This document shows positions 30,417 through 55,317 of a stretch of DNA of 64,000 bases, in pieces. Below the pieces are notes generated by a model. The model was not told the DNA's origin, made no database searches, and was given only the letters and a program-made list of their open reading frames with translations. The translations under genes were made by a program, and so were the position numbers. Where the stretch lies: contig CALXMU010000001.1 of the NCBI GenBank assembly GCA_944389555.1, positions 194,676-258,675 of the forward strand, in the 5' to 3' direction. Numbering within the stretch: position 1 is the stretch's first letter; every line of letters begins with the position of its first letter. The DNA is from an uncultured Alphaproteobacteria bacterium (lineage in GTDB: Bacteria > Pseudomonadota > Alphaproteobacteria > Rs-D84).

Positions 30417-31094
30417 TCATTCTACCACAACTTTACCTGACGACAAAGTTGTTATATGTGTCGGTTTTACTAATTCCGTAAAATTTTTTTGGTGGCTGAT
30501 AAATAAAAATGTGGTTTGTTTCATTTCTTTTATTATATCAACAAACTGGTTTTGAACGGCGGTATCGGCACCAGAGTCTGGTTCGTCAAGAATTGCAAGT
30601 TTAGGTTGCGTCATTATAAGCCTCAGTAACATTAGACGTTTCCTTTCGCCACCAGAAAATCCTACATTTATGCTACGATTTAACCATTCTTTTGGAATGT
30701 CTAGTTTTGTCCTCGCAGACTCCAAACGCATTAGAAATTCACCCATAGATAATTCTTTGCCAGTTTGAAAGTGTGTATGAGCCGCTAAAGAATGTTTAAG
30801 AAAACTTAATACAGTTAGCCCCGGAATTTCTGGTACGTTTTGCGCGCCAAGGAAAATTCCCATCAATGCTCGCGTTGTAGAATTTTCGTTTGTTATATCA
30901 ACCCCATCAAATATAATTTGACCAGAATCTACGTTATATTCAGGATTACCCATAATTACATTAACAAGTGTGGATTTCCCAGAACCGTTGTGACCAGATA
31001 ATAAGTGTCTAGCACCTTTTTCTACGTGCAGATTTATATCCGTTAGAAGTTTTTTCCCGTTCATTGATACAAATAAGTTTTTTACTTTTAACAT
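30417..31094 (-). CDS. sufC: Fe-S assembly ATPase SufC
   Basis: This 225-residue ABC-type ATPase drives conformational change of the SufBD scaffold. Walker A is GHNGSGKST (34-42), the signature is FSGGERKR (146-153) and Walker B is LAILDEPDSGAD (167-177). The PDSGAD variant is characteristic of SufC. It lacks membrane partners nearby. sufB lies 0.9 kb upstream on the same strand, separated by an opposite-strand RNA/secreted-protein unit, so sufC must have its own promoter or be reached by read-through. Confidence 0.95.
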   Translation of the reverse strand: MLKVKNLFVSMNGKKLLTDINLHVEKGARHLLSGHNGSGKSTLVNVIMGNPEYNVDSGQIIFDGVDITNENSTTRALMGIFLGAQNVPEIPGLTVLSFLKHSLAAHTHFQTGKELSMGEFLMRLESARTKLDIPKEWLNRSINVGFSGGERKRLMLLRLIMTQPKLAILDEPDSGADTAVQNQFVDIIKEMKQTTFLFISHQKNFTELVKPTHITTLSSGKVVVE

Positions 31095-31139
31095 TTATAA
31101 ACACCTTAAATTTATAGCCAGAATTATAACATAAATTGC

Positions 31140-31168
31140 TTGCGTTGCAATGTATTGAAAACTATAAT
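31140..31168 (+). promoter_or_regulatory. Promoter of the structured RNA region
   Basis: TTGCGT (31140-31145), a 17-base spacer and TATAAT (31163-31168). The predicted transcript starts near 31175, exactly where the first hairpin begins. Confidence 0.55.
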
Positions 31169-31174
31169 ATTTTT

Positions 31175-31265
31175 GTCAGCGGGTGTTCCGTTGACGAGGT
31201 GTAACGACCTCTTTACAGGCGTCGGAATATGTACTTATGGCGCGTATGTTTGCGCCGTTTTTAAT
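31175..31265 (+). ncRNA. Candidate small structured RNA (about 90 nt)
   Basis: Immediately after a promoter-like TATAAT lie three perfect hairpins in a row. The first is GTCAGCGG-GTGTT-CCGTTGAC (31175-31195, one G-T pair). The second is GAGGT-GTAACG-ACCTC (31196-31211). The third is GGCGC/GCGCC (31239-31256), followed by GTTTTT as an intrinsic terminator. No convincing ORF spans it; a 61-codon frame exists but has no ribosome site. This is the layout of an independent small RNA, or of a riboswitch-like leader with premature termination for the downstream secreted-protein gene. I do not recognise the RNA family. Confidence 0.5.
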
Positions 31266-31283
31266 ATTACGACGAAAAATAAA

Positions 31284-31385
31284 CTCCTGATTTGTGTCAG
31301 GAGGGCGTGCGAATATATTGAATAAGCAGCACAATTCCTGTAATTGTCGTTAACCTCCTGACCACCAAACCTTTTGGTGGTTTTT
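31284..31385 (+). promoter_or_regulatory. Attenuator-like leader of the Cys-rich gene
   Basis: CTCCTGA-TTTGTG-TCAGGAG (31284-31303) forms a hairpin. TCAGGAGG (31297-31304) can instead pair with CCTCCTGA (31354-31361), which directly abuts a terminator hairpin CCACCAAA/TTTGGTGG plus T-run (31362-31385). ACAATT-CCTGT-AATTGT (31331-31347) lies between. The alternative pairings in front of a terminator 14 bases before the ribosome site suggest conditional read-through. Confidence 0.45.
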
Positions 31386-31410
31386 CATTGTGAAAAATAG
31401 GAGTTTAATG

Positions 31411-32010
31411 ATGAAAAAAATATTATTTTCGTTGTTTTTTACATTTTGTTTTGTAAACCAATCTATAGGTGCAACACATTCAGGATTTCTCAATGGCAAG
31501 TATTGCTTAATAATAAATCCAGGAGATACTCAAAATGCTACTTGTTATTGGTGTGAGGGGCAAGGTGGAAGCACAGCTCCTGGAAATTGCAAAAAGGGTT
31601 ACCCTTCTTGTATGCATCAAGACGAAAAATATATTCACGTAGGCGAGAGAGTTGATAATTATGAATGTCGCTATGAAGGATATTGTGAGGTTAGTTGTAG
31701 CGGAGGCCGTTGGTATACGACTGGTAATGGATATGATGAGTTTCAAGAGAAAAGCGGTTGCTTGTGTGATAGCTATACTAGTACAACTACGTATCGTTGC
31801 TCTGCAGGTTATTATGGCACCGGTAAAAATTGTTCAAGATGTCCTGCAGTAGACGACACGGTTTCTCCTATTGTATACGGGAATAGTCTACCTAGTGAGG
31901 GTAATGAAAGTATAACGGATTGTTACATATCTGGTATAGCCGGGGAGTATTTTTATGATAAAACTGGTACTTTTGAAATCTATACAAGCAGATGTAATTA
32001 TAGTAATTAA
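31411..32010 (+). CDS. Secreted cysteine-rich protein
   Basis: This 199-residue protein has a signal peptide (about 1-21, ending SIGA) and about 20 cysteines in short spacings (CYWCEGQGG, CEVSCSGG, CLCDSY). It ends with a module RCSAGYYGTGKNCSRCPA near residue 130, which looks like the growth-factor-receptor/TNFR-type Cys modules. ATG 31411 is chosen because AGGAG lies seven bases upstream; ATG 31408 and GTG 31390 are in frame. It converges on sufB with a four-base overlap and splits sufB from sufC. Function unknown; extracellular and disulfide-rich is a safe inference. Confidence 0.75.
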   Translation: MKKILFSLFFTFCFVNQSIGATHSGFLNGKYCLIINPGDTQNATCYWCEGQGGSTAPGNCKKGYPSCMHQDEKYIHVGERVDNYECRYEGYCEVSCSGGRWYTTGNGYDEFQEKSGCLCDSYTSTTTYRCSAGYYGTGKNCSRCPAVDDTVSPIVYGNSLPSEGNESITDCYISGIAGEYFYDKTGTFEIYTSRCNYSN

Positions 32011-33341
32011 GAGTTTTTTATAGCCATTTGAATCAATTGTTTTGATTCTACTAAAAACTCCATTGGCAGTCTTGATATAACAGGGGCGGCGGTCGCACCA
32101 ATTATAAGTGCGGTTGCCGCGTCTTCTTCTATGCCTGCCGACATCAAATATTCTAATTGATTAGCATCTATGGCACCTGTTGAGGCTTCGTGGCTTTGTA
32201 AATTATCCCCGTTACTGTGTACTATTGTGGGCAATGTATTCGCAATTGCCTTATCTCCTATCAGCCTTGTGTCACATTTTGATGCGTTTTTGGCGTTATG
32301 ACCACTAAAACTTACAAGACTACGAAATGTTTGTCTGGATTTATCCAAAGCAACCCCATATGATAGGATGTTTGAAACCGTTTCGTCTCCGATGTGAATC
32401 ATTTTTGTACCCGTATCGGCCTGTTGAGCACCACGAGTTATAGTAAGTGAATAAAAGTCGCTATGTGCATGATTTCCGGCTAAAATTGTAGACGGATATT
32501 TCCATGTCATAGCAGAACCTATTTCAACTTGGGTCCAATCTAAACGCGCATTTTCAGCACATTTTCCACGTTTCGTAACAAAATTTAGTATACCGCCGCT
32601 GTTGGTATTTTTTTTCTCGTTAAAATCTCCGGCATACCAATTTTGTACGGTTGCATATTTTACAGTTGCGTTATCTTTTACAATTATTTCAACGACACCG
32701 CTATGTAATTGATGATTTGGGCGACGAGGAGCACTGCAACCTTCCATATAACTTAGTTCTGAACCAGTATCTGCTATAATTAGCGTGCGTTCAAATTGAC
32801 CGATTTTTGCGGTTTCTATTCTAAAATAACTTGCTAAGTCAATGGGGCATTTAGTATTTTCTGGAACATAAACAAAAGTTCCATCTGAAAATACTGCCGC
32901 ATTTAGCGCCGCAAAAAAGTTATCTGTTGCCGGGACAACTGTACCTAAGTATTTCTTTATTAAATCTGGGCATTTTTTTACGGCCTCAGAAAAAGGTAGA
33001 AATATAATTCCAAGCTTATTTAATTCTTCGGTATATGACGTATGAACGGATTTACTATCTATTACAGTATCCGTTGCCATACCAAGTAAAGCTTTTTGCT
33101 CGCTTTCTGGTAAACCCATTTTCTTATAAGTCTCACGAAGATCAGAATTATCTATCGGTTTAAATTCGTTATAATAATTCAGCGCATCATAATCTATCGG
33201 GGAATAGTCTATTTCCCCCCAGTGGGGCTCTGCCATTTTTTTCCATGCTTTGAACGCTTTTAAACGCCATTCTAATAACCAGTCTGGTTCTTCCCGCTGA
33301 ATAGATATTTCCCTGACAAGATTTTCGGAAAGTTTCGGCAT
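32007..33341 (-). CDS. sufB: Fe-S cluster scaffold SufB
   Basis: SufB is the scaffold on which Fe-S clusters are built with SufC and SufD. The 444-residue protein has the SufB N-terminus (EPDWLLEWRLKAFKAW, 18-33) and the beta-helix core. The functional residues C356 (SKCDTRLIGD) and E385 (SHEASTG) correspond to the essential Cys and Glu of E. coli SufB. The gene is minus strand, two bases after a membrane-anchored unknown (33344-33889). sufD is not in the window. Confidence 0.95.
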   Translation of the reverse strand: MPKLSENLVREISIQREEPDWLLEWRLKAFKAWKKMAEPHWGEIDYSPIDYDALNYYNEFKPIDNSDLRETYKKMGLPESEQKALLGMATDTVIDSKSVHTSYTEELNKLGIIFLPFSEAVKKCPDLIKKYLGTVVPATDNFFAALNAAVFSDGTFVYVPENTKCPIDLASYFRIETAKIGQFERTLIIADTGSELSYMEGCSAPRRPNHQLHSGVVEIIVKDNATVKYATVQNWYAGDFNEKKNTNSGGILNFVTKRGKCAENARLDWTQVEIGSAMTWKYPSTILAGNHAHSDFYSLTITRGAQQADTGTKMIHIGDETVSNILSYGVALDKSRQTFRSLVSFSGHNAKNASKCDTRLIGDKAIANTLPTIVHSNGDNLQSHEASTGAIDANQLEYLMSAGIEEDAATALIIGATAAPVISRLPMEFLVESKQLIQMAIKNS

Positions 33342-54720: not shown

Positions 54721-55290
54721 ATGGCATCATATATTGCAAATGATATGCGCGTCGGTTGGGTTATTGCCCATAATGGTAAACGTTATTCTGTAATGTCAAT
54801 AACGAAAGTTAAACCTGGTAAGGGCGGCGCTTTTGTTCAGGCTGATTTACGTGATATTGATTCTGGTAATAAAGGTAATGATCGTTGGCGCGCGGAAGAC
54901 AAAGTTGAAAAGTTGATGGTTGAAGATTTTGATTGTCAATTCTTATATTCAGATGGTACTGATGCATACTTTATGAATTTGTCTAATTATGAACAGTTTA
55001 CTATGCCCGTTGAAACGATGGGTGAGCAAATGAAGTTCTTGGCACCAGAAATGATGGTAAAGGCAAATTTTGTTGAAGGTAATCCAGTATCAATTTCTTT
55101 ACCGAAAACAGTTGTTGCAACTGTTGAAGAGACGGAGCCTGCGTTAAAAGGGCAAACCGTATCAAGTAGCGGTGGAAAACCAGCAATTCTAGATAATGGT
55201 GTTCGCGTTCAAGTTCCTTTATTCATTGAACAGGGCGAAAAAATCGTTGTAAATACAGAAACCCTAGAATATGTAGAGCGCGCAAAATAA
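54721..55290 (+). CDS. efp: Translation elongation factor P
   Basis: This 189-residue, three-domain protein relieves ribosome stalling at polyproline. The modification loop is KPGKGGAF with Lys at position 34, the residue beta-lysylated by EpmA in relatives. The C-terminal OB domain ends GEKIVVNTETLEYVERA. ATG 54721 is chosen with AGAGG upstream; a TTG at 54661 would add 20 unrelated residues. It lies 60 bases after ppa and may share its transcript. Confidence 0.95.
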   Translation: MASYIANDMRVGWVIAHNGKRYSVMSITKVKPGKGGAFVQADLRDIDSGNKGNDRWRAEDKVEKLMVEDFDCQFLYSDGTDAYFMNLSNYEQFTMPVETMGEQMKFLAPEMMVKANFVEGNPVSISLPKTVVATVEETEPALKGQTVSSSGGKPAILDNGVRVQVPLFIEQGEKIVVNTETLEYVERAK

Positions 55291-55317
55291 AAAACCGGCT
55301 TTTTAGCCGATTTTTTA
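55290..55317. terminator. Bidirectional terminator efp/fba
   Basis: AAAACCGGCT-TTTT-AGCCGATTTTTT, one C-A mismatch. Confidence 0.78.

Follow-up and report, generated by a model that had tools for sequence, protein, structure and literature searches.

The window analysed here, a 64,000-nt stretch of DNA from an uncultured alphaproteobacterium, contains a split pair of suf genes, and the question raised by the locus is what the DNA lying between them encodes. The organism was assigned to the genus Candidatus Enterousia, a name taken from its named relatives, and Enterousia belongs, according to PMC12306168, to the order Rs-D84. An intergenic stretch separates sufC (30417-31094, minus strand, ABC_tran) from a gene for a Cys-rich protein on the plus strand, beyond which lies sufB (32007-33341, minus strand, SUFBD_core), so that the leader RNA and the Cys-rich gene are nested within the sufB/sufC pair in the opposite orientation. 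The reading preferred here, to which a probability of roughly two in three is given, is that the region forms a riboswitch-like transcription attenuator in the 5' leader of a Cys-rich secreted-protein gene, operating through an exchange between the helices P5 and P7 (Table 1).

Table 1. Features of the leader RNA and of its surroundings, in window positions; percentages refer to pair cells in aligned copies.
Feature	Position	Strand	Pairing or sequence	Basis
Promoter	31140-31168	+	TTGCGT 31140-31145, 17-nt spacer, TATAAT 31163-31168	direct sequence
Leader RNA, ~211 nt	31175-31385	+	ends in terminator U-tract	model R1 and covariation
P1 hairpin	31175-31195	+	31175-31182 with 31188-31195	8 pairs, 7 changed on both sides; 99.4% paired, 42 copies
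P2 hairpin	31196-31211	+	31196-31199 with 31208-31211; loop is 5' strand of PK1	91.0% paired
Pseudoknot PK1		+	31202-31207 (UAACGA, P2 loop) with 31347-31352 (UCGUUA)	100% of cells paired; 4 of 6 pairs changed on both sides
Pseudoknot PK2		+	31214-31219 (UACAGG) with P6 loop 31337-31342 (CCUGUA)	98.1% paired; 5 of 5 counted pairs changed on both sides
P3/P3a arm	31220-31274	+	P3 31220-31223 with 31271-31274; P3a 31239-31243 with 31252-31256, then T-run	alignment
P5 hairpin	31284-31303	+	31284-31290 with 31297-31303; local partner of switching segment (terminator state)	99.7% paired, 42 copies
P7		+	31296-31304 (GUCAGGAGG) with 31354-31362 (CCUCCUGAC); exclusive with P5; 3' strand overlaps terminator foot	98.8% paired
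P5a stem	31308-31328	+	31308-31310 with 31326-31328; conserved loop GAAUAUAUUGAAUAA	99.1% paired
P6 hairpin	31332-31346	+	31332-31335 with 31343-31346; loop pairs in PK2	100% paired but invariant, 42 copies
Intrinsic terminator	31361-31385	+	31361-31369 with 31373-31381; U-tract 31381-31385	5 of 9 pairs changed on both sides, 42 copies
Shine-Dalgarno	31399-31403	+	AGGAG	direct sequence
Putative controlled gene	31408-32010	+	200-aa Cys-rich protein, signal-peptide-like start; ATG 31408 or 31411	

The TATAAT-class promoter and the two hairpins beginning at the predicted 5' end, as described in an earlier reading made from the sequence alone (the sequence-only reading), were both found, the promoter boxes being placed as corrected in Table 1 and the predicted start, at about 31175, coinciding with the first base of P1. 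Of 153 copies, 129 had a promoter-like match of at least 8/12 directly 5' of the RNA start, compared with 8.5% of shuffled upstream sequences. A Pfam search with the 200-aa product of the Cys-rich gene matched no family. On the minus strand, a further site at 31123-31150 (TTGCAA, 16 nt, TATAAT, with TG before the -10 box) points at sufC and shares bases with the -35 region of the leader's own promoter; a promoter for the split suf genes may therefore lie here. Control of the leader by iron or sulfur, the stresses under which read-through had been proposed for testing, was dropped as a candidate and the suggested link gained no support, as the other copies of the RNA that were examined do not adjoin suf genes.

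Comparison of copies was used to examine the fold. Forty-nine oriented copies were aligned, of which 42 formed alignment A2; L020, L021, L026, L027, L031 and L032 were omitted because they were divergent or their 5' end was uncertain, and L048 because it almost duplicates L043. The stems, whose conservation in relatives had been put forward as a check, were kept: 98.1% of 2043 pair cells were standard, 27 of 49 pairs were changed on both sides, double-change cells numbered 270 as against 67 ± 8 in shuffles, and the covariation score was 0.403 (0.161 in shuffles), while control structures slid by 1-3 columns were only 32-50% paired. Folding z-scores were -3.1 for 31175-31265 and -4.5 for 31266-31411, and a terminator scan of 1101 bases returned 5 sites (0.5 ± 0.6 in shuffles). 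The window copy, which was part of the training set of model R1, scored 228.3 bits with that model (E = 2.3e-58 in its own genome).

When copies were compared side by side, two long-range complementary pairs were seen to differ in sequence from copy to copy. Neither pseudoknot had been encoded in the search models, and 76 unique distant copies therefore served as an independent test. PK1 showed 5 or more consecutive Watson-Crick pairs in 74 of these (mean 6.30, shuffled 3.07) and PK2 in 60 (mean 5.93, shuffled 2.65). As PK1 and PK2 covary in the 42 copies and recur in the distant ones, the halves would fold as one unit, a connection that was not visible to the sequence-only reading because it had only one sequence. 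A single folded leader RNA, with two pseudoknots tying its first half to its second, is well supported as the common source of the reported features by these comparisons, and a conserved structured domain is present in the 5' leader, as is characteristic of riboswitches.

An alternative suggested by the same region was that a small RNA of about 90 nt (31175-31262) ends at P3a and is followed by a separate attenuator, or that two terminators act in tandem. The GC-stem and T-run on which this idea was based do occur at 31239-31262 and score as a terminator, but they form the tip of the internal P3/P3a arm and are not shared by most distant copies. A terminator-like P3a was found in 41/42 close copies (6% of shuffles) and in 25/30 loci of the RF02221 type discussed below (11% of shuffles), as opposed to only 18/76 distant alphaproteobacterial copies (3% of shuffles) and 1/5 copies from the same genome, such copies keeping the rest of the fold. 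The shared fold does not need this stem. Given that PK1 and PK2 connect both halves with covariation, and that the internal stem is so sparsely distributed among the distant and own-genome copies, a separate small RNA is considered quite unlikely; of the two options that had originally been offered, the attenuator or leader is the one that is well supported. Since two branches retain this terminator-like arm, an early stop yielding a ~90-nt RNA is nevertheless conceivable: P3a is possibly a first, internal terminator within the leader, and may be an extra, earlier checkpoint in some branches including this one. Its terminator-like form in many copies lies outside the simple two-state picture. 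A leader-peptide attenuator was also considered and dropped, since ATG-started frames in P3 varied in length among copies when inspected by eye.

The key feature of the attenuator reading is the second hairpin, whose right arm, as the sequence-only reading had noticed, can instead pair next to the final terminator. The segment GUCAGGAGG can pair either with CUCCUGA, forming P5 and leaving the terminator intact, or with CCUCCUGAC, forming P7 and occupying the terminator foot. In A2, the alternative structure (P5 plus terminator) was paired in 96.8% of 1826 cells. P5 and P7 are nearly invariant inside the genus and the triad varies only between diverged copies, so that within the genus the switch rests on complementarity. 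In diverged copies from the same genome the switch segments change jointly, for example GGTTGGAGG with CCTCCAACC in L172-L174; P7 pairing is kept despite sequence change in own-genome and distant copies, and P5 has changed in step with P7 in copies outside the 42. A terminator stem was present in 74/76 distant copies, with 2/76 lacking one by scan, and in 63 of the 74 terminators the 5' arm and the P7 3' strand overlap by 3 nt or more. The P5 partner of the P7 5' strand gave a modest signal in the distant copies, with a mean run of 7.46 as against 6.13 when partners were shuffled (highest shuffle 6.55).

Model energies of the two states were close, with means over the 42 copies of -44.6 kcal/mol for P5 plus terminator and -46.0 kcal/mol for P7 plus a short terminator (pseudoknots not counted), and values for the window copy of -52.9 and -50.4 kcal/mol, respectively. 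Loss of 3 basal pairs weakened the modelled terminator, its mean over the 42 copies going from -9.7 to -2.8. The OFF state was the one of lower energy in only 6/42 copies, even without pseudoknot terms, and the balance between ON and OFF is therefore to be read as a model result. As judged from sequence and model energies, the RNA thus possesses the mutually exclusive structures of a riboswitch expression platform (P5 versus P7, with terminator overlap) and, as expected of an intrinsic-terminator attenuator, its terminator lies between promoter and gene and overlaps an alternative stem. Elsewhere in the core, an alternative P5a internal loop, with UAUGUCCA...UAAAG replacing AAUA...GAAUA, was observed in L223-L226, L229, L259, L261, L263 and L193-L197, and this second form could reflect a different ligand or contact; the P5a loop core is the same in some distant copies.

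A mechanism can be proposed from the helices, both pseudoknots, exclusive pairings, terminator overlap, promoter-like sites and placement before predicted secreted or surface genes that are evident in the comparative data. RNA polymerase would start near 31175, and the 5' domain (P1, P2 and P3) would fold first. The segment GUCAGGAGG would then be made and pair back with CUCCUGA, in which case the terminator would be completed and transcription would end upstream of the gene (OFF). Should P6, PK1 and PK2 instead fasten the 5' domain to the core, P7 would displace P5 and take base pairs at the terminator foot, and transcription would continue (ON). That P7 is the ON state is itself part of the proposal, as is a signal, presumably a small molecule or ion, that would tip the balance. 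Terminating riboswitches with pseudoknotted aptamers combine a conserved and complex fold, alternative pairing and an overlapping terminator in gene leaders, with several copies per genome. The leader has all of these traits; it differs in being unusually multi-copy (27 copies in one ~1-Mb genome and 53 in another) and in that the genes it precedes share a location (envelope or secreted) and not a pathway.

The distribution of the RNA was examined with several searches. Using blastn with the region, 63/99 genomes were matched at E ≤ 0.1. An exact pattern recovered at least 118 stretches in named genomes, the titles among the 80 listed being Alphaproteobacteria, Pseudomonadota or proteobacterium, Rickettsiales or Candidatus Enterousia. 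Model R1 identified 7 copies in the same genome (E ≤ 5e-6) and detected the leader in 89/96 genomes of the genus (at most 25 candidates scored per genome) and 129/142 of the order. In the class it was found in at least 17/385 genomes with R1 and at least 31/384 with the broader model R2, and in the phylum in at least 6/398 with R2; these class and phylum counts are lower bounds, as 6-7 candidates were scored per genome. Fuller scoring of the two ~1-Mb relatives gave the 27 and 53 copies mentioned above. Diverged copies were seen across the Alphaproteobacteria, on rhizobial plasmids and in phages. In viral contigs, the strict Enterousia pattern gave no match and a looser pattern gave 5 matches, of which the model scan matched 3.

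Several individual placements were recorded. Tandem arrays of 2-4 leader copies occur in genome G049 (C2:101-910, 54891-55292 and 97716-98122; C1:482149-482577). A diverged copy, as in L311 and L312, was found in 207 plasmid records, many of them rhizobial and conjugative, and in L311 it precedes a DUF2285 gene; a copy 5' of a phage antirepressor gene (L309) had matches in 159/5426 E. coli genomes, in prophages. In the same genome as the window, L176 (G000:C4:23053-23231) lacks a U-tract and a clear following gene and is possibly decayed. Integron attC sites, suggested by the folded repeats, were dropped as a candidate because the copies are dispersed and have promoter-like sites of their own. 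The many copies, some in tandem arrays, and their presence on conjugative plasmids and in phages would also be expected of a mobile or merely duplicated repeat that moves with genes and has no regulatory role. This is highly improbable in view of the compensatory changes in both pseudoknots and of the same architecture recurring at short distance before unrelated genes.

The genes following the RNA were then considered in a set of 156 unique elements from A2, A3 and A4. The set still includes some weak antisense matches from A3, which lower the totals. An ORF started within 160 nt of 144/156 elements, the median distance from the element being 29 nt. Signal-peptide-like starts, as called by a simple hydrophobicity rule and not by a trained predictor, were present in 122/143 downstream ORFs of at least 50 aa versus 259/829 control ORFs, and Cys contents of at least 3% in 115/143 versus 162/829. 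The copies fetched from blastn likewise stand before different genes, most with a signal-peptide-like start. In other Alphaproteobacteria, the downstream genes encode, among others, lipoproteins, outer-membrane, pilin-like and glycosyltransferase-like proteins and small XRE-type regulators; Pfam searches covered ten proteins. In one genome (G458), copies L205 and L230-L233 each precede very similar XRE-type regulator genes.

As these genes do not come from one pathway, no metabolite stands out as the signal. An RNA-binding protein, and not a small molecule, might stabilise one of the two states, as surface proteins and small DNA-binding regulators, unlike the enzymes of a single pathway, point to no particular metabolite. 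The double-pseudoknot fold, however, resembles small-molecule aptamers, and although this is a resemblance only, a protein-binding leader is regarded as quite improbable. Among small molecules, c-di-GMP deserved attention, as c-di-GMP riboswitches are multi-copy elements before surface and pilus genes. The leader shares with these its many copies before surface or pilus genes; it differs in giving no Rfam match and in that the GGDEF domain (PF00990) was found in 0/9 of the family genomes with the RNA that were tested, as opposed to 13/13 others. Because of this absence of GGDEF, c-di-GMP is an unlikely ligand in this family.

The relation of the leader to known RNA families was examined with Rfam, as the sequence-only reading, which could match the region to none, had recommended. 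For the window sequence this assessment was correct: no RF02221 (sRNA-Xcc1) match was obtained on the window copy in the full window at the gathering score, nor across 30800-31700 at E values up to 10, and permissive E values returned chance-level matches only (Ref1C, Phe_leader). No other Rfam family, including the c-di-GMP riboswitch, was found over the element. The assessment did not extend to relatives, as L300, a copy from outside the class, matched RF02221 at 76.6 bits (cut-off 53) in its 3' half only, the 87 positions of RF02221 corresponding to the P7-P5a-P6-P7' core of L300. With the RF02221 model, the own-genome copies L176 and L174 scored 39.7 and 35.2 bits, below the cut-off, and 50/96 genomes of the genus gave hits at E ≤ 0.001, 2/96 of them over the cut-off and several at places also found by R1 or R2.

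Thirty RF02221-type loci, out of more hits, were examined for the upstream half of the element. A PK1 partner of at least 6 pairs was present upstream of 28/30 (mean 7.7; highest shuffle 5.6), and a PK2 partner, more weakly, upstream of 20/30 (mean 5.8; highest shuffle 5.57). In these loci (L313-L342), the sequence surrounding the start of the following gene also contained repeats of both pseudoknot strands, L322, L327, L328 and L338 being examples; repeats of at least 6 nt were PK1-like in 18/30 and PK2-like in 20/30, and the means, 5.7 and 6.1, exceeded the highest shuffle (5.07). In Enterousia, strand copies at the ribosome site were found in 1/42 for each strand, and in the distant Alphaproteobacteria they were within the range of shuffles. 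As strand copies flank the ribosome site in RF02221 loci and not in Enterousia, the output of the core may differ between branches, the alphaproteobacterial copies ending in a terminator and the RF02221 types often showing strand copies around the ribosome site, which would suggest translational control.

In Xanthomonas, sRNA-Xcc1 is reported as a cloned, trans-acting RNA of 88 nt with mapped ends and a Northern band of ~100 nt (PMC2996969). It is placed 5' of symE in integron cassettes (PMC12444791), a Xylella genome has seven copies of it (PMC12189769), and Rfam 15 lists two added covarying pairs for RF02221 (PMC11701678). Unlike the leader, it is annotated without a 5' domain or pseudoknots, and a trans-acting RNA with mapped ends, as so described, fits a simple leader poorly. 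It was considered whether a core fragment works in trans as an antisense RNA, the role suggested for sRNA-Xcc1, with two short antisense segments in the P6 loop and in the 3' strand of PK1 and with the 5' domain as a decoy or cis brake. The mapped 88-nt RNA (PMC2996969), the matches to both strands around the downstream start in the RF02221-type loci and the differing, self-matching sequences held by copies within one genome are in keeping with this; the signal is missing below the Enterousia copies, the targets found are in cis, and the PK1 partner stands upstream in nearly all of the RF02221 loci, and the antisense explanation is accordingly judged unlikely. With that partner in 28/30 loci, the 88-nt RNA seems to be a piece of a longer RNA, and its short form would represent a processed core or a second start. 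From these comparisons, sRNA-Xcc1 appears to be the 3' half of the same element, as a partial and distant relative. In the open literature, with subscription papers mostly outside the search, no description was found of this architecture or of a longer sRNA-Xcc1, a result that speaks weakly for novelty.

Together, PK1 and PK2 give each copy a two-part code of its own, about 12 base pairs long and matched within the locus. In the RF02221 branch this code is repeated around the ribosome site of the downstream gene. In genome G119, where 15 copies were read of 27, all codes were different and 0/210 cross pairs matched in both parts; in the code comparison for G049, 2 of 22 rows were cut copies of other rows. 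Such codes could belong to a self-addressed RNA network, in which a released core recognises only its own messenger and dozens of surface genes are given separate feedback by a single common design, although differing codes would also be expected from neutral drift with compensation, and the network is thought rather unlikely. If it were true, sRNA-Xcc1 would be one released core.

Under the preferred reading of a transcription attenuator, the finding introduces a large, doubly pseudoknotted leader RNA, standing before many secreted-protein genes of gut bacteria with reduced genomes in up to 53 copies per ~1 Mb. It also recasts a published sRNA (RF02221) as what appears to be one half, the 3' one, of a longer element that occurs on chromosomes and plasmids and in phages throughout the Proteobacteria. 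The copies before the antirepressor gene of E. coli prophages make the mechanism testable in laboratory strains. With so many copies in one genome, a single signal could set a whole surface and secretion regulon.
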